From: Alphaproteobacteria bacterium | Lineage (GTDB): Bacteria; Pseudomonadota; Alphaproteobacteria; Rs-D84 | DNA: 44,288 nucleotides | Assembly (NCBI GenBank): GCA_017616785.1 | Contig: JAFZXK010000014.1 | Coordinates: forward strand, 1 to 44,288 | Reading direction: 5' to 3' | Shown here: piece after piece, positions 29,924 through 42,749 of the stretch | How positions within the stretch are numbered: the stretch's first letter is position 1 | Layout of the letters: every line of letters starts with the position of its first letter | Made by a program: the position numbers and the translations under genes | Notes under the pieces: generated by a model | The model's database searches: none | The model's input: the letters and a program-made list of their open reading frames with translations, nothing else | Told to the model about the DNA's origin: nothing

Positions 29924-30349
29924 TCATAAATGTACGATTTCAATATCTGGAATTTGGCTTGCAATATATTCTGCCGCTAACCGTCTGTGACACATATCTG
30001 CTGTCTTTTCGGTGCACAGCAAACATATTCTGTTTAATTTATCAATATCGCAACTTTGCAGCGGGTTGCGCGCGTTTAACAATTCGCGATATTTCTGCTC
30101 GAACTCTGCCCAAGCAAGTTTTTTATCTTTATAATCGGCCAGAAAATCACTGCTTGGTGCAAATTCTGGATGATATTCATAACGATTCCCAAGCGCCGCC
30201 GCCAAATTATCGCCATTATAATATGGCACATAAGTACTGGTCCGCCAAAGCCGAATGTCCCACACACAACTTATGCGTGCTGCTGACATCACTTCCAGAA
30301 AAACTTCTGGTTTTTTGCCACTAAAACCAATCGTAAATATCTTTGTCAT
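29924..30349 (-). CDS. DUF488 family protein
   Basis: 141 aa. Seen: the DUF488 opening IFTIGFSGKKPEVFLEVM, VWDIRLWRTS (usually V-D-x-R), and the C-terminal signature ICLLCTEKTADMCHRRLAAEYI. The conserved Cys, Glu and CHR residues are present. The family is a common passenger of mobile elements and defence loci, and its reaction is unknown. ATG 30349 begins one base after the stop of the upstream dual-OB-like gene (TGA-T-ATG), so the two are translationally coupled and probably work together. Confidence 0.88.
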   Translation of the reverse strand: MTKIFTIGFSGKKPEVFLEVMSAARISCVWDIRLWRTSTYVPYYNGDNLAAALGNRYEYHPEFAPSSDFLADYKDKKLAWAEFEQKYRELLNARNPLQSCDIDKLNRICLLCTEKTADMCHRRLAAEYIASQIPDIEIVHL

Positions 30350-30350
30350 A

Positions 30351-31001
30351 TCAGTATAAAAATAGCCCATTTAGCATCAAATAGCAATGATTTTCCTGAA
30401 TCAAAAATTTACGCGCCAGACCAATTCTGCAATGCGCATATTGTGACTGAGAAACCATATAGTTTAATTTATCGACATCTTTGGTTCTTTCAAAAATATC
30501 ACGCAAGTATTTGCAACTGACTTTCATATCATATTTTTGTTTGGAAAAATCAGTTATGCTTGCGCGCAATTTACCGTCCTCTGTAAAGAATTCTATATCT
30601 TGTGCAGAAATTACTATCGCGCCAAGCGATGGACATTTAGTATTTTGTAAAACATAAGATTTTTCTTTGACATGATGATTGAATATGGATTGGATATCTT
30701 TTGATACAGTGTCTTTCAAACAATCCGCCAATTCTTTGTCAGGTTCAAAATATCTTTCAATTTCTATAGATTCGTAGTTTATGTTAACATCTTCTGTTCT
30801 GTGCGGGTAATCGCGCGGTTCATCAAAGGGTTCATTTTCAACCATTATCTGACAATACGTCCGCGGTATTTGATTTTCATCCCAATAACCACCATCAATC
30901 ATAAGTCGTTTCATACGTTTTTCATAAGTATCAAAACCAGCAATACAAAATTTTTCTTTCATACAGGTTATATCAGAAATTATAATATTTGATGTTTTCA
31001 T
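30351..31001 (-). CDS. dual-OB-like protein paired with DUF488
   Basis: 216 aa from ATG 31001, which follows AAAGGAGCAAAA. The opening NIIISDITCMKEKFCIAGFD fits the pattern of 'dual OB domain' proteins (I-x-D-x-T...C-I-A-G-x-D), a family I recall as a regular neighbour of DUF488; this was not checked by search. The rest is mixed alpha/beta with SLGAIVISAQDIEFF, KQKYDMKVSCKYLRDIF and a Cys-poor core. It is transcribed from its own promoter through a leader with two terminator-like hairpins. Its likely role is nucleic-acid or nucleotide sensing in a two-gene conflict module. Confidence 0.55.
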   Translation of the reverse strand: MKTSNIIISDITCMKEKFCIAGFDTYEKRMKRLMIDGGYWDENQIPRTYCQIMVENEPFDEPRDYPHRTEDVNINYESIEIERYFEPDKELADCLKDTVSKDIQSIFNHHVKEKSYVLQNTKCPSLGAIVISAQDIEFFTEDGKLRASITDFSKQKYDMKVSCKYLRDIFERTKDVDKLNYMVSQSQYAHCRIGLARKFLIQENHCYLMLNGLFLY

Positions 31002-31004
31002 TTT

Positions 31005-31154
31005 TGCTCCTTTGTTAAATAAAAAAGCCCGCATATCGGGCCCCGAGAAACTGCAAAATTTCGTGGGATGATTTAGCGGGCAATAAAAAAAAACGGCGCA
31101 ACAATGCACCTTTGGTTATTAAATCATTGTATCATAAAACGACATAAAAATCAA
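31005..31154 (-). promoter_or_regulatory. promoter plus leader with two terminator-like hairpins
   Basis: On the minus strand: TTGATT (31149-31154), 17 bases, TACAAT (31126-31131). In the roughly 118-nt leader, GGTGCATTGTTGCGCC followed by T9 (about 31088-31112) and GCCCGATATGCGGGC followed by T6 (about 31021-31040) are both intrinsic-terminator shaped and lie before the ribosome-binding site. A larger GCCCGC...GCGGGC pairing (31026-31081) is also possible. This suggests attenuation or antitermination control of the dual-OB/DUF488 pair. Confidence 0.6.
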
Positions 31155-31157
31155 GAA

Positions 31158-32747
31158 TTAAAGCATGTTTGGCAGATTAAACAACTTATCAACACTACAT
31201 CGCAACTTGCCAGACATGATGTCATTGATGGTATGCGGGTTCATATATGCAAGTTTCAGATGACGATATACACTACTTTCCGAAACATTTTCTGTTTTTG
31301 CGATTGATTTATAATCCCCATTGTGTTCGTATAATTCACGATACTTAAATGCACGTGCAAATGCCCGCACAATCAAATGGTTATTGTCGCTTATACTGAT
31401 TGCGCCAGATTTACCACAATTATATTCATTGCATTTATTATACTTGCTAAGGATAAACGGACGTTCAATTATCACCGCGTCTTTATTGATAATATATGCC
31501 ATGTCATCAGCATTTTCATTTATGAAACTTTCACTAATAAATCGCTTTAATTCGTTATTAAGCACCAGATAAAAAGTTAATTTATTTTCGGAATATACAA
31601 TTTTTGTAATAATTGTTTTTATAAAATCACGCTTTTGATTATAGGATATATTTTGCATATCTATGCGTTTTAATAATAACGCTGTATCTGGAGGAATGTC
31701 ACGCATAGACGAATTTAGAAACTCACTAATCGTATTCATTGCGATTTCATCAATACTAAGCGATGGGATATAAAATCCAGATTTAGCGTAATAGTATTTT
31801 ACCGGTTGCCCTGGTTTTCGTGTTTGTTGGTTTGTAAACTTTATGCCATCTATATCGAACAATTTTCCAGTTAGTAAATTTGGTGAACCTGTATAACGAT
31901 TACCCTTGTTGTTACCATTTCTGGCGAGCACCATTTGAACGCGATTGAATAAATCTTTATCAATGATTGCTTCGTGTTCACCAGGCACCGATGTTCCACC
32001 AGATTTACAAACCATGTTCCCAATATATACTTCATCACGCAACAAATTGTGCATAGTTTGTTGATAAAATTCTGCACCGCCGCGTATTGTTCCTTTTTTA
32101 GTTGTCCTTTGTTTGTTACGAATGTTTTGTGCGCGTGCAAAGCGAACCAATTCAACCACAGATTGTAATTCAATGTATTTTTCAAATAGTGTTTTTACTT
32201 GTTCTGACTCGGTCAGATTTACTACGAGTTTCTTATTTATTATGTCATAACCAAGTCGCGGATTGCCACCAACCCAAATGCCTTTGGCTTTCGAGGCACG
32301 AATTTTGTCTCGCACACGTTCGCTGGAAACTTCTCGTTCAAACTGAGCAAACGACAACAACATATTTAATGTCAATTTGCCCATAGAATTTGATGTGTCA
32401 AATGACTGTGTGATTGATACAAAATTCGCGTTATATTTTTCAAAGTATTTCATCATATTATGAAAATCCAGAATTGAACGCGATAATCGGTCAACTTTAT
32501 AGACCACCACTGTATTAACCAAGCCATGTGCCATATCATCCAACATTTGCTTTAATGCTGGACGTTCCATCGTTCCACCAGAAATTGCTGCATCACTATA
32601 TGTTTTATAATATTGCCAACCATTAAACGATTGTGACGCAATATATGCCTTGCACGACTCTTCTTGATTTTGTAGGGAATTAAATTCCATGTCCAATCCG
32701 TGTTCTGTTGATTTGCGAACGTATATTGCGCATCTATTTACTGTCAT
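31158..32747 (-). CDS. large serine recombinase (site-specific integrase)
   Basis: 529 aa. The N-terminal resolvase domain has CAIYVRKSTEHG with the catalytic Ser in the RKS motif, QNQEESCKAYI, DAAISGGTMERPALKQML and VYKVDRLSRSILDF. The recombinase domain follows (KAKGIWVGGNPRLGYDI), then a zinc-ribbon-like or coiled-coil part. The C-terminal segment KYRELYEHNGDYKSIAKTENVSESSVYRHLKLAYMNPHTINDIMSGK is a helix-turn-helix typical of this class. It should integrate and excise the element. ATG 32747 follows AAAAGGAC. The gene overlaps the DUF2924 gene by 14 bases. Confidence 0.93.
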   Translation of the reverse strand: MTVNRCAIYVRKSTEHGLDMEFNSLQNQEESCKAYIASQSFNGWQYYKTYSDAAISGGTMERPALKQMLDDMAHGLVNTVVVYKVDRLSRSILDFHNMMKYFEKYNANFVSITQSFDTSNSMGKLTLNMLLSFAQFEREVSSERVRDKIRASKAKGIWVGGNPRLGYDIINKKLVVNLTESEQVKTLFEKYIELQSVVELVRFARAQNIRNKQRTTKKGTIRGGAEFYQQTMHNLLRDEVYIGNMVCKSGGTSVPGEHEAIIDKDLFNRVQMVLARNGNNKGNRYTGSPNLLTGKLFDIDGIKFTNQQTRKPGQPVKYYYAKSGFYIPSLSIDEIAMNTISEFLNSSMRDIPPDTALLLKRIDMQNISYNQKRDFIKTIITKIVYSENKLTFYLVLNNELKRFISESFINENADDMAYIINKDAVIIERPFILSKYNKCNEYNCGKSGAISISDNNHLIVRAFARAFKYRELYEHNGDYKSIAKTENVSESSVYRHLKLAYMNPHTINDIMSGKLRCSVDKLFNLPNML

Positions 32748-33174
32748 GTTTTGTCCTTTTGGCGATTCCAAAGAAGTCCGGACCGGACACCTTTATACCC
32801 GTAATATCCAGCGCAATCGCAGATAACGTTTTATATGTTTTATCGTTATACGCGAACCCGTCGTCTGTAACGATAACATTGTGTTTAATGCCACGAAATA
32901 TCTTGGTTATGGTGCTACCAATGGTCAAATTGTATTTGTTTTTGTGCACCTTATCCAAACAAGCATCGGGGTTATCTTTATATTTACGAATTTTTACCAT
33001 ATATTTTGGTTCTATTCGCAGTTTTAATCGATCACATTGTATGTAGTACCACAAGGCAAAATTCTGCCGTTTGAACGGATATGGACAGTATTTTGCCCAC
33101 AATTGCCCACGTTCTGCAAACGGCAAGCGTTTCAGTTCATCAAATCTTTGCGGTATATCAATTTCGCACGACAT
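32734..33174 (-). CDS. DUF2924 family protein, recombinase partner
   Basis: 146 aa. N-terminal half: RFDELKRLPFAERGQLWAKYCP. C-terminal half: a RAMA-like region with GSTITKIFRGIKHNVIVTDDGFAYNDKTYKTLSAIALDITG, then SGPDFFGI, which is the DUF2924 signature. The family usually lies directly upstream of serine recombinases in alphaproteobacterial elements, as here; a DNA-binding or directionality role is plausible but unproven. ATG 33174 follows AAAGGAG. Confidence 0.88.
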   Translation of the reverse strand: MSCEIDIPQRFDELKRLPFAERGQLWAKYCPYPFKRQNFALWYYIQCDRLKLRIEPKYMVKIRKYKDNPDACLDKVHKNKYNLTIGSTITKIFRGIKHNVIVTDDGFAYNDKTYKTLSAIALDITGIKVSGPDFFGIAKRTKHDSK

Positions 33175-33228: not shown

Positions 33229-33299
33229 GTTAATAAAATTATAGGGAAATATGTCGAAATTTGTGTTATAATTCTTGGGTAATATTAAGGGAGATTTTT

Positions 33300-34220
33300 A
33301 TGTTTTTGTACAACAAGGATAAAAAAGGTCATTTGAAACAAGTAAAACAGGTGCCTTTCAAATTAGAGAAAAATGTGCAGGAGATATTCGAGAATAACCT
33401 TAACGAGATTATGGGGTTGCAGTTCGTAGATACAGAATACGCTGTAAAAGACAAGAGATTTGATACAGTGGCTTTTGACGAACAAAATAAATCTTTTGTT
33501 ATTATCGAATATAAAAGGGATAAAAGCACCAGTGTTGTAGATCAGGGCATGACTTATCTCTATTTAATGTTGCAAAACAAATCTCAATTCGTTCTTGATT
33601 ATAATAACAAGTTTGGTAAACAGTTGACCGTCAATAGTGTAGACTGGACACAATCCAGAATTGTTTTTGTTGCATCATCGTTTAATGATTTTCAACAAAC
33701 ATCGTCCCTGTTTGATAATTTGGCCATTGAGTTATGGGAAGCAAAACAATTTGAAGATGGTCATCTATTAATAGGACCGTTGCCTAAAAAAGATACCATT
33801 TCTATGCCAATTCCAAAAACATCAAACACAAAATCTGCCTCTGTATTTGCCGCGGTCTCCTCTGTTGTGAAACCTGTAACAGAAGACGATTTGCTACAAG
33901 TGGCAAGCGAACCTATTAAAGAACTGTATACTAATTATAAACGTTCTATTTTAGCCCTAGATGACAGTTTGGAGATAAAACCAAATAAATTGTATATTGT
34001 GTTTAAACAACAGGGTAAAAACAAGGTGGATATAGAAATTCATAAAAATTATCTATTGTTATATATCAATGCAAAACATGGTCAACTTGATGACTCGAAA
34101 TCGCTGTTTGAAAATTGTTCCAACATCGGACATTGGGGAAATGGTGACTATCGCATCAAACTTACAGACGATAAATACTTACAGTATATTTTGAGTGTTA
34201 TCAAACAAGTCCTTAAATAA
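33300..34220 (+). CDS. PD-(D/E)XK nuclease-like protein with DUF5655 C-terminus
   Basis: 306 aa. ATG 33300 follows AAGGGAG. N-terminal half: NucS/PD-(D/E)XK-like fold with RFDTVAFDEQNKSFVIIEYKRD, whose D...E-x-K residues fit a nuclease centre. C-terminal half: DUF5655-like with KELYTNYKRSILALDDSLEIKPNKLYIVFK, VDIEIHKNYLLLYINAK and WGNGDYRIKL. Such fusions occur as lone genes in defence-rich loci; the family name is from recollection. It lies alone between two minus-strand genes that share one promoter type. A restriction-like role is inferred. Confidence 0.75.
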   Translation: MFLYNKDKKGHLKQVKQVPFKLEKNVQEIFENNLNEIMGLQFVDTEYAVKDKRFDTVAFDEQNKSFVIIEYKRDKSTSVVDQGMTYLYLMLQNKSQFVLDYNNKFGKQLTVNSVDWTQSRIVFVASSFNDFQQTSSLFDNLAIELWEAKQFEDGHLLIGPLPKKDTISMPIPKTSNTKSASVFAAVSSVVKPVTEDDLLQVASEPIKELYTNYKRSILALDDSLEIKPNKLYIVFKQQGKNKVDIEIHKNYLLLYINAKHGQLDDSKSLFENCSNIGHWGNGDYRIKLTDDKYLQYILSVIKQVLK

Positions 34221-34224
34221 CACA

Positions 34225-34419
34225 TTATTCAACTGTAAACCATTTTGAAATAATATCCCATATTTCCTTATTAGATTTATGGGATATTTCTTTTAATAAG
34301 CATTCGATTTCTTCTTGCTTGCCTATCCGGCATAAACCTTTAAAACACAACACTATTAGAAATACAATATCGTGTTTATATTTGCTAATTGGTATAGTAA
34401 TTTGTTGATATTTTGTCAT
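34225..34419 (-). CDS. small hypothetical protein, 64 aa
   Basis: ATG 34419 follows AAAGGATAAAAC and a promoter with the same sequence blocks and the same 18-19 base leader as the DUF2924 gene. The protein is KYKHDIVFLIVLCFKGLCRIGKQEEIECLLKEI, then a Trp- and Lys-rich tail. No family recognised. The shared promoter suggests it acts in the same programme as the recombinase, perhaps as an excision or control factor. It ends 4 bases from the convergent nuclease-like gene. Confidence 0.7.
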   Translation of the reverse strand: MTKYQQITIPISKYKHDIVFLIVLCFKGLCRIGKQEEIECLLKEISHKSNKEIWDIISKWFTVE

Positions 34420-34444
34420 GTTTTATCCTTTGTCTATGTTTCAC

Positions 34445-34473
34445 ATTACCGCTCTGAAAGCCACAGAAGTCAA
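34445..34473 (-). promoter_or_regulatory. shared-type promoter (copy 2)
   Basis: On the minus strand: TTGACT (34468-34473), 17 bases, GGTAAT (34445-34450), with AACTTGACTTCT before and AGAGCGGTAAT at the -10. Confidence 0.7.
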
Positions 34474-34548
34474 GTTAATAAAGATAATAAAACGACTGGA
34501 CTTTCGGTTAAAAGTAATGACAAATGCGACAACATAAAAGGAGTCGCC

Positions 34549-34761
34549 ATGAAATATAAACATTTTGATGACATTGAGCCAAATCACCGTATGGATTTTA
34601 TAATGCTCTATTTTGCAGCTTGCCGTTCGTTACGCGAACTTGAAGCCGCAATTCGTAGAACAAACAATGGATACTTGACCTGTCGTCAAGCATGGTTGCT
34701 CCGTCGTATTCAACACAAACTTACCCAAATGGTGGCATTATGGAAAAAGCAATCTTTATAA
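34549..34761 (+). CDS. small hypothetical protein, 70 aa
   Basis: ATG 34549 has AAAAGGAG upstream. A helical protein: MKYKHFDDIEPNHRMDFIML, then AACRSLRELEAAIRRTNN, with TCRQAWLLRRIQHKLTQM near the end. The two Arg/Leu helices could form a helix-turn-helix or a small dimer, but no family is recognised. Transcribed away from the 64-aa gene; a GAGCG/CGCTC hairpin follows at about 34774-34791. Confidence 0.65.
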   Translation: MKYKHFDDIEPNHRMDFIMLYFAACRSLRELEAAIRRTNNGYLTCRQAWLLRRIQHKLTQMVALWKKQSL

Positions 34762-34811
34762 ATTTGTAAAAAAAGAGCGTCCGGAGCCGCTCACTCAAAA
34801 ACACTAAGCCG

Positions 34812-35045
34812 TTATAAACAACACGGGTATCCTCTCGTGCATTCGCACTGATTTCCTGCGCGTTTTAACGCCTTGTGTTTTATATCATCACTAAATGCTG
34901 GTGGGCTTTTGTGATTTGTATCGCCATATGATGCTGTTTCTGCATGACATTTTTGACACAACACTTTTGCGTTGTCTAAGCCATTTCCACCGTCGATTCT
35001 GATGTGATGAACTTCAAGATTTGTCGTTCTGCGACATCTAACCAT
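34812..35045 (-). CDS. small HNH-type protein
   Basis: 77 aa. NLEVHHIRIDGGNGLDNAKVLCQKCHAET carries the HNH core (HH, the Asn of GLDNAKVLC, and CxxCH). FSDDIKHKALKRAGNQCECTRGYPCC follows with further Cys, possibly a zinc site. Much shorter than phage packaging HNH nucleases, so a minimal nuclease or a DNA-binding relative. ATG 35045 is chosen because AAAGGAGGTGAGCAAT is an ideal ribosome-binding site; GTG 35054 lies inside that site. It has a 200-nt structured leader. Confidence 0.8.
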   Translation of the reverse strand: MVRCRRTTNLEVHHIRIDGGNGLDNAKVLCQKCHAETASYGDTNHKSPPAFSDDIKHKALKRAGNQCECTRGYPCCL

Positions 35046-35283
35046 ATTGCTCACCTCCTTTATTGCCTGTACTCTGGTTGGCTCTCAGTTCGTAAAATAG
35101 AAACCACTTTACAACCGAAAACGGAAGTGATAAACTCAGAGACAGGTAAGGGTCACTGTTTTTATAGTGATTTCTAAAATGCACTCTCTATTTTCATCCG
35201 GAATTTAGAGAGTTTTTTGTTCTTGTGATTATTGTCCCAAGAACAAGTATCATTATATATTATGTTATGTAAAAAATCAAGAA
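35046..35283 (-). promoter_or_regulatory. promoter and long structured leader of the HNH gene
   Basis: On the minus strand: TTGATT (35275-35280), 17 bases, TATAAT (35252-35257). The roughly 200-nt leader holds a chain of helices: TTGTTCTTG/CAAGAACAA (35217-35246), ACTCTCTA/TAGAGAGT (35183-35213), TCACTG...TAGTGA (35153-35170), and a 13-bp imperfect outer helix (35063-35076 with 35137-35149) enclosing CACTT/AAGTG and CCG/CGG stems. On the plus strand the TAGAGAGT arm is followed by T5, so a terminator for rightward transcription is also possible. No known RNA class recognised. Confidence 0.6.
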
Positions 35284-35353
35284 CTTTTTGTCAAAAATAA
35301 TAAGTTTTCGTATTATTTTTTATAAAAATACAATATTTTTATAAAATACTGCT

Positions 35354-35381
35354 TTTGTTTTTAATAAATTAATGTTATAAT
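35354..35381 (+). promoter_or_regulatory. promoter of the repressor operon
   Basis: TATAAT at 35376-35381 with a weak TTTGTT at 35354-35359. ATACATAACGTAT (35380-35392) is an imperfect dyad; a related TGTTATGTAA lies at 35263-35272, next to the opposite promoter. These are candidate operator sites for the S24 repressor. Confidence 0.55.
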
Positions 35382-35407
35382 ACATAACGTATAAACGAGG
35401 GATGAAA

Positions 35408-36004
35408 ATGAAAAACGAGATTATCGCGCTTTTGCGAACCGAAGGTGAGCTAACACTTACCGGGATACAAGACAAGTTAGAAAAAAAACACAAACCTGTC
35501 GTAGCGTACCATCTGCGTGGATTAATAGATAGAGGGCTTGTTCATAAAACTCAAAACAAAACTTATAAACTGGTCGATTGTGACGGGTTGCAAGTCAATG
35601 GTGTTGAAACAATAATTGTACCACGAATTATTGCAAAAGCAGGTCCTAATGATGTGTTTTTATCCGAAAATGTTTCCACATGTGAATTGAATAAAAAAGA
35701 TACGTCTTATAAGCCAGAAGATTTGATAATAGTGCAAGTGTCAGGCACATCCATGGAACCAACATTTTCCGATGGAGACATGCTATTATTTCGCAAAACA
35801 TTTGAAAAACCAGAAAATAATTCAATTGTTTTATGGCGAGTTGACGATGGTGCAAAAATAAAACGAATAAAATGGGTTGACTCACCAGAGGAATCTTATG
35901 GATTGTTATTATCGGACAATGTTAGCGACCCAGACAACACACCTATTCACGTTGATGATAATAATTCCGAATTTATAGGCAAATTTGTATCTCGTATCAG
36001 TTAG
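35408..36004 (+). CDS. LexA/CI-like S24 repressor
   Basis: 198 aa. N-terminal winged helix (EIIALLRTEGELTLTGIQDKLEKKHKPVVAYHLRGLIDRGLV), C-terminal S24 peptidase with the catalytic Ser in VSGTSMEPTFSDGDMLLF and the Lys in GAKIKRIKW. An Ala-Gly pair in IIAKAGPND would be the self-cleavage site. Such repressors cleave themselves with RecA on DNA damage. ATG 35408 has GAGG 8 bases upstream; ATG 35402 is too close to it. First gene of an operon with tcmP and the Cys-motif protein, so those genes may be induced by DNA damage. Confidence 0.85.
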   Translation: MKNEIIALLRTEGELTLTGIQDKLEKKHKPVVAYHLRGLIDRGLVHKTQNKTYKLVDCDGLQVNGVETIIVPRIIAKAGPNDVFLSENVSTCELNKKDTSYKPEDLIIVQVSGTSMEPTFSDGDMLLFRKTFEKPENNSIVLWRVDDGAKIKRIKWVDSPEESYGLLLSDNVSDPDNTPIHVDDNNSEFIGKFVSRIS

Positions 36005-36035
36005 TGTTAAAAAAAAGAGAAACGGAGATAATAAT

Positions 36036-37097
36036 ATGGATACTAGAAATATAATTACAGAACACAGTAAAATCAAATTAGAAATTTACAAAAAATATTT
36101 GAAAGCATATTTGTCTATAATGGCTTTACCCAATGTCCCATATCAGCATATATCTGTTATAGATCCTTTTGCGGGTATGGGAAAAGATGACAAAGGCACA
36201 GAAGGCAGCGCATCTATTGCCAAAAGTGTTTTTGATGAATTGTATCCTGTTTTTATTAGTAATGGAAAGATTCCACATTTGTTTTTAAATGAATTGGATA
36301 TTAACCGTTTTGCAAAATTAAAAGAAAACGTACCATCGGCAGAATACATTAATTTTTCTAGTGATGATGCTAATAAATTTATATCGAATACCGCTAATGG
36401 CTTGATGGGGCACGCGCTTTATTTTATAGACCCTTTTGGATATACACAACTTGATAAAACCACATACGATTCATATTTATTCGGCAAAAACAATACAGAT
36501 ATTTTAATTTTTATTCCTGTTTATCATATTTATAGATTTTTACGCAAAGAAGAAAATTCTGAACAATTAAAACCCATCGCGGAATTTTTAAAAGATATCG
36601 ACATATCCGAAAGCAGCGTAAAAAATCTTAAAACATATAGGGAGTTCACCAATGTTGTTGCTGACGCATTAAAAGAAAAATCTAATACTCATTTTGTTTA
36701 TTATAAAATATTAGATAACGAAACAAGCAATTCTCATTATGCATTATTCTATATTTCAAAAAATGTACTAGGCGCACAAAAATTTCTTGAGATCATGGAT
36801 CAAATGAAACAACCAAGTTTATTTTATAATATCATATCTGAACCAGAACACTTCAGATTTGAAAATGGCTTAAAACAAAATCAAGTTTTAAATAATCGTC
36901 AAATATATTTGGGCGGAATTGTATGTGGATTATTACCAAAAGACATACGAAAAATATTGAAGTCTTTAGAAGAAGAAGGTAAAATATCCGTAAAGTCGTT
37001 AACCGGGTACGAACGTAAAAGGAAGGCGTTTCCTGTAGATTACAGCGATTATATAAATAAACAACCTAAAATAGAAGTTTTTTGGGTGGGAAAATGA
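36036..37097 (+). CDS. tcmP: three-Cys-motif partner protein TcmP
   Basis: 353 aa. The opening TEHSKIKLEIYKKYLKAYLSI, then ISVIDPFAGMGKDDKGTEGSASIA and ALYFIDPFGYTQLDKTTYDS, match the TcmP layout: a methyltransferase-like Rossmann fold with DPFAGMG and DPFGY in place of the SAM and substrate loops. The C-terminal part looks like a winged helix (DIRKILKSLEEEGKISVKSLTG). Family members lie next to a protein with a three-Cys motif, as here. ATG 36036 follows ACGGAGATAATAAT. Its stop overlaps the next start (ATGA). Confidence 0.85.
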   Translation: MDTRNIITEHSKIKLEIYKKYLKAYLSIMALPNVPYQHISVIDPFAGMGKDDKGTEGSASIAKSVFDELYPVFISNGKIPHLFLNELDINRFAKLKENVPSAEYINFSSDDANKFISNTANGLMGHALYFIDPFGYTQLDKTTYDSYLFGKNNTDILIFIPVYHIYRFLRKEENSEQLKPIAEFLKDIDISESSVKNLKTYREFTNVVADALKEKSNTHFVYYKILDNETSNSHYALFYISKNVLGAQKFLEIMDQMKQPSLFYNIISEPEHFRFENGLKQNQVLNNRQIYLGGIVCGLLPKDIRKILKSLEEEGKISVKSLTGYERKRKAFPVDYSDYINKQPKIEVFWVGK

Positions 37098-37870
37098 AAA
37101 AAGTTGTAGGATATATTGAAAGAAAATCTATGCTCTACAAAACAGGCGTAGAGTATGGTGATTATACGATGAACCATGTTGTTGGTTGTTCTCATGGTTG
37201 TTTGTATCCCTGTTATGCTTTTCTTATGGCTAAACGTTTTGGGACAGTTAAAGATTATCAGGAATGGATTCGTCCAAAATTGGTGTCTAATACACTTGAA
37301 CTACTTGATGCAGAAATCCCCAAATTAAAGTCAAAAATAAAGTCTGTTCAGTTGTGTTTTACGACAGACCCATTTATGTACGGTTACGATGAAATAAAAA
37401 AGATGAGCTTAGCATCGGTGAAAAAATTGAATGATGCAGGCATAAAATGCACTGTCTTAACTAAGGGCACATTACCGAAGGAACTTGCGGAGTTATCCAA
37501 AGAAAACGAATATGGTATAACATTGGTTTCTTTGGATGAAAATTATCGCAAAAAAATAGAACCAGGTTCTGCACCATATAAAAAAAGAATTGAAGCTTTG
37601 AAATATTTACATGATAAGGGGTTTAAAACCTGGGTTAGCATAGAACCATATCCAACACCAAATCTTATTGAACAGAATTTAGATGAGATTTTGGAAGTAT
37701 TAAAATTTACAGACAAAATTATATTTGGCAGAACCAATTATAATAAAGAAATATCTGCATTTAAAACTCATAAACTGTTTTATAATGAACAGGCCGCCAA
37801 AGTTATTAAATTTTGTAAAAAACACAAAAAATTATGGCATATTAAAAATGGTACCATTACAGAATTATAG
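37094..37870 (+). CDS. Cys-motif (radical-SAM-like) partner of TcmP
   Basis: 258 aa. NHVVGCSHGCLYPCYAFLMAKRFG has the three Cys (C-x3-C-x3-C), near but not equal to the C-x3-C-x2-C of radical SAM enzymes; it recalls spore-photolyase-like and Gp37/Gp68 proteins. A TIM-barrel-like order follows: VQLCFTTDPFMYGYDE, KCTVLTKGT, YGITLVSLDE, FKTWVSIEPYPTPN, DKIIFGRTNYN. It probably binds an iron-sulfur cluster and acts on nucleic acid with TcmP. ATG 37094 overlaps the tcmP stop. Last gene of the repressor operon. Confidence 0.8.
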   Translation: MKKVVGYIERKSMLYKTGVEYGDYTMNHVVGCSHGCLYPCYAFLMAKRFGTVKDYQEWIRPKLVSNTLELLDAEIPKLKSKIKSVQLCFTTDPFMYGYDEIKKMSLASVKKLNDAGIKCTVLTKGTLPKELAELSKENEYGITLVSLDENYRKKIEPGSAPYKKRIEALKYLHDKGFKTWVSIEPYPTPNLIEQNLDEILEVLKFTDKIIFGRTNYNKEISAFKTHKLFYNEQAAKVIKFCKKHKKLWHIKNGTITEL

Positions 37871-39615: not shown

Positions 39616-41064
39616 TCATAGAACTAATAAGTGCGGTGTTGGTTTGGCGATGATTTCAGCACAATATAGTACACCTTGGGCGAAGGCATCGCATTGGTCT
39701 TTGAAAGCGGAATTTGGAAACAGTAATAATTCTTTTTCAAAATCATCCCAAAAATGGTTGTGGATTGATGGAAACAATACCGTTCCACAATAAACATAAC
39801 CAGATGCACCATTCATGCGTGCAACTTTGTCTTCGTATGGGTGAATTGCGTGAATGTATGTGCTACGAACACCTTTTTGGGGCAAAAATTGAATTAACGA
39901 CGTTCCAGATGATGCATCTTCAATAGCGATTTTATGTTGCGACCGCGGATGTTTTTTCGTTAATGCAACAAAGGTATTTTTTACTTGGTCAGCCAAATGC
40001 GGAAAATCTAATCTGGCACGATATATGTCCAATAGATAAATATGTTTATCGGCAGAAATTCCAAACGTTATGCACGCAGAATAAGCGTTGGTTGGCCCCG
40101 TTTTTGATGCGGTATCCCAAGATGTAATTATATGTGTAAAACTTTCTGGCATTGCCATATAATATTGCATCCATTCAGATTTGATTATGCAACCCTCCTG
40201 TGGTGCCGGCAATTGTTGATACTGACCGGAAAACACTAATTCACCGACACTATCTTTGATATGCATAACGGTTTCGATTGATTCACGTTCTGGATGCAGT
40301 GGCGTTCCAATTGCTCGCCTAAAAACACGTTTTGATTGAGTAAATGATATTGCTTCATCAGTGTCTGCAATAATTGGTAATCGCAACAGTTTAAAATCAT
40401 CGCTATTTTCCAACAGATGGCCAGTTAAATCATCTTGGTGCAACCGTTGCATAATCAATAAAATACGACCAGTGTTTTTATCGTTTAATCTTGAAAACAG
40501 TGTTGTATGGTACCAATCGTTTACACGGTTACGCATAATTTCTGAATTGGCATCAGCAGGTTTAATTGGGTCGTCAATAATTATCCATTCTGCGCCACGA
40601 CCAGTTAAAACGCCACCAACTGATGTCGCAAAACGTCCGCCATGAACGGTGGTTTCAAAATCATCTTTGGCAAATTGATGTTTGGAAATACGCGTCATTG
40701 GAAATGTTCGCATATACCAATCAGATGTCATAACATTGCGCGTATCATTGGCGAATTTGGTTGCCAGATCGTCAGAATAACTGACACATATAATGTGGGC
40801 ATGTGGATTGTGCCCCAATATAAATGCTGGCAATGCAACCGAACAAATAATTGATTTCATATAACGTGGTGGAATGTTGATTATCAGTCGAGTTTGATTT
40901 CCGTTGATGACATTTACGATGTAATCGCAAATCAGGTCAATATATTCGCCATCTATGTATCCGCCACCGCCGGATATTTCATTAAATACCTTTATCACGA
41001 ACGATTTAAAATCTGTTCGTAACAACGAATAAAAAATATCTAATTCCGAAACACTATTGTTCAT
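39616..41064 (-). CDS. terL: phage terminase large subunit
   Basis: 482 aa DNA-packaging motor. ATPase: LIINIPPRYMKSIICSVALP (Walker A variant PPRYMKS), CVSYSDDLATKFANDTRN, and WIIIDDP (Walker B). Nuclease: ITSWDTASKTG, HKIAIEDASSG, and KDQCDAFAQGV with metal-binding Asp residues. The protein looks whole and intact. It overlaps the DUF5681 gene by 11 bases, the usual terminase layout in alphaproteobacterial phages. No portal or head gene follows; the next genes downstream are the envelope operon. Confidence 0.95.
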   Translation of the reverse strand: MNNSVSELDIFYSLLRTDFKSFVIKVFNEISGGGGYIDGEYIDLICDYIVNVINGNQTRLIINIPPRYMKSIICSVALPAFILGHNPHAHIICVSYSDDLATKFANDTRNVMTSDWYMRTFPMTRISKHQFAKDDFETTVHGGRFATSVGGVLTGRGAEWIIIDDPIKPADANSEIMRNRVNDWYHTTLFSRLNDKNTGRILLIMQRLHQDDLTGHLLENSDDFKLLRLPIIADTDEAISFTQSKRVFRRAIGTPLHPERESIETVMHIKDSVGELVFSGQYQQLPAPQEGCIIKSEWMQYYMAMPESFTHIITSWDTASKTGPTNAYSACITFGISADKHIYLLDIYRARLDFPHLADQVKNTFVALTKKHPRSQHKIAIEDASSGTSLIQFLPQKGVRSTYIHAIHPYEDKVARMNGASGYVYCGTVLFPSIHNHFWDDFEKELLLFPNSAFKDQCDAFAQGVLYCAEIIAKPTPHLLVL

Positions 41065-41428
41065 GATGTTGTTTGATATATTGTTGCAGTATTAGTTTAT
41101 CGTCGTGATTCAGTTGTTCGCGTGTCGCAGACATTGCTTCGTATTCTGCATCTGCGACATCGCTTAATTCCATTATCCACTTTGCAGACTTCAGGTCACC
41201 TTGTAGAGCTTTGTTGGTTTGTTTTGCAATAATACCTTCTTTGGTGCTAATACGACGACTGTTACCGTTCGGGCCTGTCAAAGTTATTTTGCGGTTCATT
41301 TGTTCACGAACAATAGTATTACGATTGCGGACACCACGTGGTCGCCCACTTGGATTGCCCGATTGACCTTTTTGATATTGATGTTCCTTTGGGGGAACAC
41401 AAAAACCGCATTTTTGTTCATCAGGCAT
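41054..41428 (-). CDS. DUF5681 protein, likely small terminase or packaging partner
   Basis: 124 aa with the family opening YQKGQSGNPSGRPRGVRNRN and a helical basic remainder (REQMNRKITLTGPNGNSRRI, ALQGDLKSAKWIMELSD). The family is usually just upstream of terL and takes the place of the small terminase, so DNA recognition for packaging is likely. ATG 41428 follows GGAGGTGCAAA. It overlaps the methyltransferase end by 8 bases and terL start by 11. Confidence 0.88.
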   Translation of the reverse strand: MPDEQKCGFCVPPKEHQYQKGQSGNPSGRPRGVRNRNTIVREQMNRKITLTGPNGNSRRISTKEGIIAKQTNKALQGDLKSAKWIMELSDVADAEYEAMSATREQLNHDDKLILQQYIKQHHEQ

Positions 41429-42749
41429 TTTGCACCTCCAAGCTTGCGCGTTTTTCCGCCAGTAATTCTGTGTAAGTTTTACCAGTACGCAGATTTATCG
41501 CATCAATGTGAAACGCTTCGTAAAATCGTTTGACACACGTATCCACATATTTTGGTTCGTATTCAATACCGTAACAGATACGTCTATGTCGTTGCGCTGC
41601 AACCAATGTGCTGCCTGAACCCAAGAAACAATCAAGAACAGTATCGCCAACACTGGTCACATCTAACATAATGTCAGACAACATCTCAAAACTTTTGACG
41701 GTTGGGTGCATTTTTAAGTCGTTTCTATGCGGACCATATGAATTGCATCCATAATAATTCCAAACATTACTGCGATTACGTCCATATTTACCCAATTTAA
41801 TATGGTCTGGCACTTTCCCATCTTTGTTCAAAAACACTGTACATAGTTCATGTTGACTGCGATATGGTGTACCCATGCCAGCTTTCTTTTTAACCCACAC
41901 GCACAGATTTACATATTTTGCAAAATGTTGCTTACACGCGGTCAACATAGGCATAATATTCCGCCAATCTATGAAATTAAAAATCATAGCATTGTCAGTT
42001 GCGTATTCTGAACAAAGTGCAAAGTTTTTACCCAGAAACTCCACGAATTCATTATCTGACATTTCCCCAGCGGCCATGGCAAAGTCGGGATGTTTTACAC
42101 TACCGTTGCCAGAAACGAACCCTTTAATTTTTATATTAAATGGTGGATCTTGCAAAACCAGATTTACCCGCTTATCACCCATCAGGTTTTCGAAAGTTTC
42201 GTGTTTTGTGCTGTCGCCACATATAATTCTGTGACCACCCTCAAAATCCCAAATGTCTCCTGGTATAGATATTATTTCGTCATCTGCAACATATGGAACA
42301 ACATCTGATTTTTGAACTTCTGCTTTGGTTCGTGGTTCTGCCAAGATTTGATCGATTTCAATATCGTTAAAGCCAATAATAGTTATGTCTGAAACATCTT
42401 CCAGTTCGCATAATTCACTGATTTCTATATTCAAGATATCAGCATTCCATCCGCCACCATTTTCAGAGATACGATTATCCGCAATTCGTAGTTTGCGTTT
42501 TTGAACGTCGGTTAAATGCCCGATACGTATTACGGGAACCTGCAGTAAATTCAGTGTTTTTGCCGCTTCAAACCGCCCATGCCCAGCGATGATTTCGCCG
42601 TTTTCATCAATCAAGATTGGATTCACAAATCCAAATTGGTGAATAGAACTCGCAATCTGACTCACTTGTTCGGGCTTATGAATCTTGGCGTTGTTTTTAT
42701 ACGGTTTTATTTGGTCAATATTTACATGCTCAATCTTTAATTCGTTCAT
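41421..42749 (-). CDS. ParB-domain DNA methyltransferase fusion
   Basis: 442 aa. N-terminal ParB/sulfiredoxin-like domain: IKPYKNNAKIHKPEQVSQIASSI, then VNPILIDENGEIIAGHGRFEAAKTL. C-terminal beta-class adenine or cytosine methyltransferase: LVLQDPPFNI (catalytic DPPF), and DCFLGSGSTLVAAQRHRRICYGIEYEPKYVD (SAM motif I at the end, as in the beta class). These fusions are common next to terL in alphaproteobacterial phages and may mark or protect the packaged DNA. ATG 42749 follows GAGGTAAAAAT. Confidence 0.93.
   Translation of the reverse strand: MNELKIEHVNIDQIKPYKNNAKIHKPEQVSQIASSIHQFGFVNPILIDENGEIIAGHGRFEAAKTLNLLQVPVIRIGHLTDVQKRKLRIADNRISENGGGWNADILNIEISELCELEDVSDITIIGFNDIEIDQILAEPRTKAEVQKSDVVPYVADDEIISIPGDIWDFEGGHRIICGDSTKHETFENLMGDKRVNLVLQDPPFNIKIKGFVSGNGSVKHPDFAMAAGEMSDNEFVEFLGKNFALCSEYATDNAMIFNFIDWRNIMPMLTACKQHFAKYVNLCVWVKKKAGMGTPYRSQHELCTVFLNKDGKVPDHIKLGKYGRNRSNVWNYYGCNSYGPHRNDLKMHPTVKSFEMLSDIMLDVTSVGDTVLDCFLGSGSTLVAAQRHRRICYGIEYEPKYVDTCVKRFYEAFHIDAINLRTGKTYTELLAEKRASLEVQNA

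Follow-up and report, generated by a model that had tools for sequence, protein, structure and literature searches.

A double-terminator leader links a DuOB–DUF488 cassette to a putative dispersed regulon of a podovirus-derived element in gut Alphaproteobacteria

Results

The DuOB–DUF488 cassette and its leader

The window, which is the whole 44,288-nt stretch of DNA analysed here, comes from a host of the order Rs-D84 in GTDB terms (PMC12306168), and all the genomes used in this work are metagenome-assembled. Two coupled genes are read from the minus strand of the window behind a short leader (Table 1). An earlier note on this DNA had described a promoter, two terminator hairpins, a ribosome-binding site and a coupled gene pair, and every one of these elements was found again on the minus strand. 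A serine recombinase gene ends just upstream, with its stop codon 3 nt before the promoter, and about 20 nt separate hairpin 2 from the start codon of the first gene.

Table 1. Features of the cassette and its neighbour, with positions in the window.
Feature	Position	Strand	Remarks
Serine recombinase	31158–32771	−	Cassette neighbour, part of a mobile island; PF00239 E 1e-38, PF07508 E 2.1e-14
Promoter	31126–31154	−	−35 TTGATT 31154–31149, 17-nt spacer, extended −10 TG-A-TACAAT ending at 31126
Terminator hairpin 1 (GGTGCA/TGCGCC)	31095–31110	−	T-run at about 31094–31085
Terminator hairpin 2 (GCCCGC/GCGGGC)	31027–31081	−	Arms 31081–31076 and 31032–31027, then T6 at 31026–31021
Ribosome-binding site GGAG	31007–31010	−	ATG 5 nt downstream
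216-aa dual-OB-like (DuOB) gene	30351–31001	−	Start codon ATG at 31001; PF22557 in homologs, OB fold in residues 1–99
141-aa DUF488 gene (N3a, active subclade)	29924–30349	−	Start overlaps DuOB stop: TGA-T-ATG

Both hairpins described earlier are present, but their anatomy had to be corrected, because the loop of hairpin 2 carries an insert of ~37 nt, whereas the loop is 3–9 nt long in most relatives. An alternative inner hairpin is also found at 31044–31024. The same 37-nt loop insert occurs in the leaders of some phage genes in sister species (L085, L090 and L091), and the window leader is therefore homologous to these leaders, beyond mere similarity. When the window leader RNA was folded, both hairpins formed with a z-score of just −1.67 against shuffles, so the fold energy by itself is unconvincing. 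No Rfam family was found in the window leader at the gathering score, and a sub-threshold match to GcvB (E 0.0036) was rejected as a chance terminator-like match.

The 216-aa protein had been called dual-OB-like, and this assignment is supported. The Pfam family DuOB (PF22557) was matched by 9 of 14 aligned homologs with a best E of 2.3e-7; the window protein itself gave no match to PF22557 at E 10 and is 58–93% identical to the homologs. In the predicted structure (mean pLDDT 73.6), the N-terminal half forms an OB barrel and the second half is beta-rich. Residues 1–99 resemble the OB folds of RecO (Z 7.0), the SSB Rim1 (6.6) and AspRS (6.5), all modest at Z below 8. The top Foldseek matches are the HIN-200 dual-OB domains for DNA binding and DNA sensing, at a weak E of 0.003. 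The dN/dS of DuOB is 0.053. Against the PADLOC models, DuOB (homolog L026) gave no match.

The second protein keeps the DUF488 signature, as claimed before: C-TEK-TADM-CHR is read in the sequence, and PF04343 is matched at E 1.1e-18. It scores 44.5 bits against PF22751, the 'active' N3a subclade (cut-off 27), and matches the PADLOC candidate defence protein PDC-M45C at E 2e-31. The neighbouring DuOB does not supply a further protein of the PDC-M45 system, as its homolog L026 matches no PADLOC model. A DUF488 gene follows DuOB in 27 of 27 loci. At L048, L049 and L120, two cassettes lie ~9.6 kb apart with intact leaders and an identical large internal deletion of DuOB; DUF488 remains in both of them, one copy intact and the other apparently frameshifted.

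Other genes of the island lie on the plus strand (33261–37870). The PADLOC candidates PDC-S18 (E 2.6e-110) and PDC-M30A (E 4.6e-50; TcmP-like partner) are matched there, and a radical-SAM-like protein is encoded after them.

The leader is conserved at DuOB loci

DuOB homologs were gathered by protein search, which gave matches in 18 of 96 genomes of the genus and at 31 genome loci. Upstream of these relatives, the promoter, two elements of hairpin plus T-run and the ribosome-binding site are kept, and the genes further upstream vary. Two terminator-like hairpins were found in the 100–120 nt upstream of 22 of 26 protein-selected DuOB relatives, versus 2 of 1300 dinucleotide shuffles, and chance does not explain the pair. 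The four leaders failing this strict test are L024 (promoter deleted), L036 (a narrow miss), and L038 and L042, which are distant and leaderless. At L024 (4796–5000), in a sister genome, the recombinase directly adjoins a truncated leader lacking the −10 and half of hairpin 1, and this cassette may depend on recombinase transcription.

Between subgroups, the stems are replaced wholesale (GGCGAT/ATCGCC, GGCACA/TGTGCC, GGTGGC/GCCGCC, GCGACC/GGTCGC) with a constant layout. Formal pair covariation within one close subgroup was no better than shuffles, so the support for the leader comes from the replacement of stems between subgroups together with the counts. Covariance on MAFFT alignments was discarded as uninformative, since the stems of the subgroups are misaligned and the sequences closely related.

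An alignment of 106 leaders gave the promoter motif TTGATTTTT-n7-TTTnTGATATAAT, and in 104 of them the distance to the −35 is constant; the TG and the −10 anchored this alignment, and their own conservation is partly by construction. The leaders are short, with a median of about 88 nt from the −10 to the ATG. Among the termite-gut outgroups, the leader-bearing L039 and L040 have the podoviral capsid gene described below and the leaderless L038 and L042 do not, in a tiny but concordant sample that includes an incomplete genome (L038, 0.5 Mb).

The same leader precedes phage-type genes throughout the genus

Leader covariance models matched 107/141 and 82/96 genomes of the genus ("Candidatus Enterousia"), typically with 1–5 matches per genome, and none of 90 other alphaproteobacterial genomes. 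The next gene was phage-type cargo at 94 of 100 leader matches outside DuOB loci; the six unclassified genes are three fibre-like and three truncated ones, and no housekeeping gene was seen after any of the 100. The cargo includes GH24 and GH108 endolysins, MuF-like fusions, DNA methyltransferases of EcoRI-like or Dcm-like type, and tail fibres. In the MuF-like proteins, the fusion partners recognised by Pfam are GH108, GH24 or YkuD/Tlde1 domains, and a small secreted or membrane protein is encoded after many of the effectors, with which it would form a toxin–immunity pair. In one genome (L166:17931–18223), two leaders placed back to back drive divergent effector genes.

The link was also examined by a count free of homology. 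It covered 618 genes of 100 aa or more in 42 fetched 20-kb regions, and a pair of terminator-like hairpins stood in the 100 nt upstream of 20 of these. Each of the 20 is a regulon gene (core endolysin, MuF or peptidoglycan effectors, tail fibre, DuOB) and the other 598 lacked the pair; the regions had been picked for genes of the regulon or the core cluster, so that the informative figure is zero unrelated genes among the 20.

A second leader unit of the window genome (G000:C18 94.9–96.8 kb, 94971–96788; L115:7972–9786) encodes a MuF-GH108 effector, a secreted protein and then a DUF488 protein. This DUF488 is 89% identical to that of the window, compared with 79–80% for the DuOB-linked DUF488 of sister species, which suggests exchange between leader units.

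A single-copy podoviral cluster carries a leader of the same layout

A cluster of podoviral genes was found through IMG/VR relatives of a tail-fibre cassette. These relatives were not accepted as viral contigs, and are actually chromosomal pieces of the cluster. In the window genome it lies at G000:C10 28.5–40.7 kb. It starts with an endolysin, a small membrane protein, a T7-type scaffold (PF05396), a basic protein and the major capsid protein (PF19821), and continues with tail tubular proteins, a T7-type fibre N-domain and the N-half of the terminase. After a stretch on the opposite strand that encodes a 226-aa helical protein, a two-HTH protein and dnaB, the C-half of the terminase comes next, together with a head-tail connector (PF12236) and a spanin-like gene. 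An HK97-type portal was absent in 11 genomes.

The capsid gene is carried by 84 of 92 genus genomes and, across the order, by 109 of 114, with few exceptions as a single copy. Its identity falls with kinship, from 79–100% within the genus to about 64–72% between families. Median dN/dS is 0.06 for the capsid, which is under strong purifying selection, and 0.07 for the connector. An order-wide single-copy cluster of this kind fits a domesticated particle that is passed on by vertical descent, as judged from its genes. The core operon has the double-terminator layout in 12 of 12 genomes, compared with 1 of 600 shuffles: its first gene follows a promoter (CTTGACTT...TATTATA) and two hairpins that each lead into a T-run; the sequence of this leader is largely unlike that of the cassette leaders.

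In the genomes read (L222–L235), the core terminase is split, with the ATPase half after the tail genes and the nuclease half before the connector; dnaB, the two-HTH protein and the 226-aa protein on the opposite strand separate the halves. Because the terminase is split into two genes, the particle is possibly defective.

The window also holds, in the neighbourhood of the serine recombinase and of a DUF2924 gene, a minus-strand module (39616–42749) of a ParB-methyltransferase, a TerS-like protein and a full-length TerL, also found in the genus genomes L163, L166, L169 and L171. A window prophage represented by this module was rejected as owner of the leader: no portal or capsid lies nearby, and TerL occurs in 21 of 59 genomes, several copies being fragmentary. 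The module could be a satellite that packages itself into the resident podoviral capsids.

Discussion

Antitermination of a dispersed regulon

The leader is best read as the putative mark of scattered genes that form the regulon of a domesticated podovirus, with the DuOB–DUF488 pair as one cargo unit. The earlier note had proposed that the genes stay off unless termination is overcome, and this is kept as a prediction from the leader anatomy, which is strongly conserved. Its candidate conflict system with attenuation control is not supported as a stand-alone system, since the leader is common to endolysins, MuF proteins, fibres, methyltransferases and the podoviral core; the PDC-M45C match leaves room for a conflict role.

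We therefore favour, with a probability of roughly 0.7, the reading that the cassette is a unit of a dispersed regulon belonging to a domesticated, gene-transfer-agent-like podovirus, and that the regulon is opened by a predicted antiterminator of the lambda Q, AlpA or GafZ type. This reading starts from the leader anatomy, its conservation, its exclusive link to regulon genes and the order-wide single-copy podoviral cluster. RNA polymerase would start at a good sigma70-type promoter and would normally halt at the intrinsic terminators about 30 and 95 nt downstream, leaving the genes off. A putative trans-acting antiterminator, loaded at the promoter, would then allow read-through of both terminators. 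This would switch on all units at once, namely the lysis enzymes, the tail fibres, the MuF peptidoglycan effectors, the DNA methyltransferases, DuOB–DUF488 and the capsid-tail operon. Termination in vivo, the antiterminator and the production of particles are thus predicted steps.

A processive antiterminator is proposed because the order of promoter, terminators and first gene is that of the AlpA targets, and because the system resembles the antitermination-controlled gene transfer agent of Caulobacter. Conserved bases were seen between −35 and −10 in the 106 leaders, mostly T-rich, which may be plain promoter sequence; this is the region bound by AlpA and GafZ (PMC7969949, PMC11150451), and by analogy, the conserved spacer leaves room for a putative antiterminator site. 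The antiterminator itself was not found, and two candidates resident in the cluster are without support: the 226-aa protein has an all-helical predicted fold with no informative fold match, and the 335-aa two-HTH protein is repressor-like.

A role of DuOB–DUF488 in nucleic-acid modification or sensing is plausible; a full-text literature search for the mechanism of DUF488 returned nothing. The pair may serve the particle, the producing cell or phage defence; within the particle programme it would perhaps modify or handle nucleic acid as its methyltransferase regulon mates would.

Relation to known systems

At lambda pR'-tR', a short terminated RNA is made until the phage protein Q modifies the polymerase. 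Unlike lambda with its single late promoter, the present system is a dispersed set of promoter-terminator units. In Pseudomonas aeruginosa, alpB and PA0807 stand behind one or two intrinsic terminators, which are bypassed when AlpA is loaded between −10 and −35 (PMC7969949). The leaders described here resemble these loci (alpBCDE and PA0807) in having a promoter and terminators right before the first gene, and in standing at lysis or prophage-derived genes (PMC7969949). In contrast to AlpA, which acts at two loci in one species, there are many units per genome in the genus and its relatives, with two terminators abutting the ribosome-binding site. No AlpA-like protein was identified here.

The Caulobacter gene transfer agent is controlled by GafY/GafZ antitermination, in which GafZ acts at a single promoter and the terminator lies after the first gene (PMC11150451). 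Like that agent (PMC11150451), the present element would be an alphaproteobacterial domesticated phage particle under antitermination control, with peripheral genes elsewhere on the chromosome. It differs from the GafZ case in that a terminator pair stands before the first gene of each unit, and in that the particle genes are of the T7 podoviral type. A podovirus-like, gene-transfer-agent-like element with more than one locus, FpGTA, has been described in Faecalibacterium, a gut Firmicute, with DNA packaging demonstrated (PMC12946183). Unlike FpGTA, the element of this study has an alphaproteobacterial host (order Rs-D84) and is known from its genes.

The cargo of several units shares the build of the MuF polymorphic toxins of temperate phages, which have a MuF-like N-terminal domain, a variable toxic C-terminus and a small second gene (PMC5576092). 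Unlike the toxins of PMC5576092, those found here are dispersed under a double-terminator leader, and their C-termini are peptidoglycan-active (GH108, GH24, YkuD/Tlde1).

Alternative explanations

The regulon may have no dedicated switch, with two leaky terminators simply holding potentially harmful genes at a low constant level. This is unlikely in our judgement, despite the missing antiterminator and the many lytic or toxin-like cargo genes for which low expression alone would be selectable. The capsid operon has the same leader and yet must be strongly expressed at some stage, and placing two terminators behind a strong extended −10 promoter is a costly route to low expression. Moreover, where known layouts of this kind control genes for lysis or particles (lambda pR'-tR', alpB, gtaT), it is an antiterminator that opens them.

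Somewhat less likely still, DuOB–DUF488 could be an anti-phage tripwire with a borrowed leader, such that the antiterminator of an incoming phage opens the pair and infection is stopped. The resident podoviral cluster speaks against this, because its leader matches and the cluster would fire the tripwire too. Furthermore, no leader-carrying phage was found (a pattern scan of IMG/VR gave two matches, neither supported by the leader models), the sole viral-labelled DuOB contig resembles a chromosomal island, and DuOB itself matches no PADLOC model. In favour of a tripwire are the PDC-M45C match of DUF488, the weak HIN-200 matches of DuOB, and the patchy occurrence of the cassette (18/96 genomes) in islands with recombinases and methyltransferases.

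Classical attenuation, in which a ligand, translation or a small RNA switches the leader between terminator and antiterminator folds, would account for two terminators in a window leader that folds stably, but it is very improbable. No Rfam family reached the gathering score and no alternative conserved pairing was seen; the stems are exchanged wholesale between units, and a leader this short showed no conserved leader peptide.

That the hairpins simply end transcription of the upstream recombinase, whose stop codon lies 48 nt before hairpin 1, and have nothing to do with the downstream genes is hardly credible, since a constant distance separates the hairpins from the promoter upstream of them, the order of promoter, hairpins and ribosome-binding site is constant in relatives with many different upstream genes, and the hairpin pair never occurs at ordinary genes of the same regions.

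Significance

The principle of control is already known; novelty lies in a podoviral element that spans the order and in the putative regulon of dispersed double-terminator units. In a wider picture, for which we see the chances as evenly balanced, a gut alphaproteobacterial order with reduced genomes keeps a podovirus-derived gene transfer agent with its genes scattered as independent units, any gene can join it through a ~100-bp leader of promoter and double terminator, and one antiterminator opens all units. DuOB–DUF488 would then be a plug-in that gives the particle, or the cell producing it, an activity directed at nucleic acid.

If the regulon reading is true, a ~100-bp leader that can be read by eye would tag all genes of a domesticated-phage regulon within an order that is uncultured, and would define the cargo of the particle as lysis enzymes, anti-bacterial effectors, DNA modification and DuOB–DUF488. 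Antitermination in gene transfer agents would extend from one operon to a dispersed regulon, and a podoviral lineage would join a field built on few siphovirus-like examples. DUF488 and DuOB, so far merely a candidate defence pair, would gain a concrete physiological setting.
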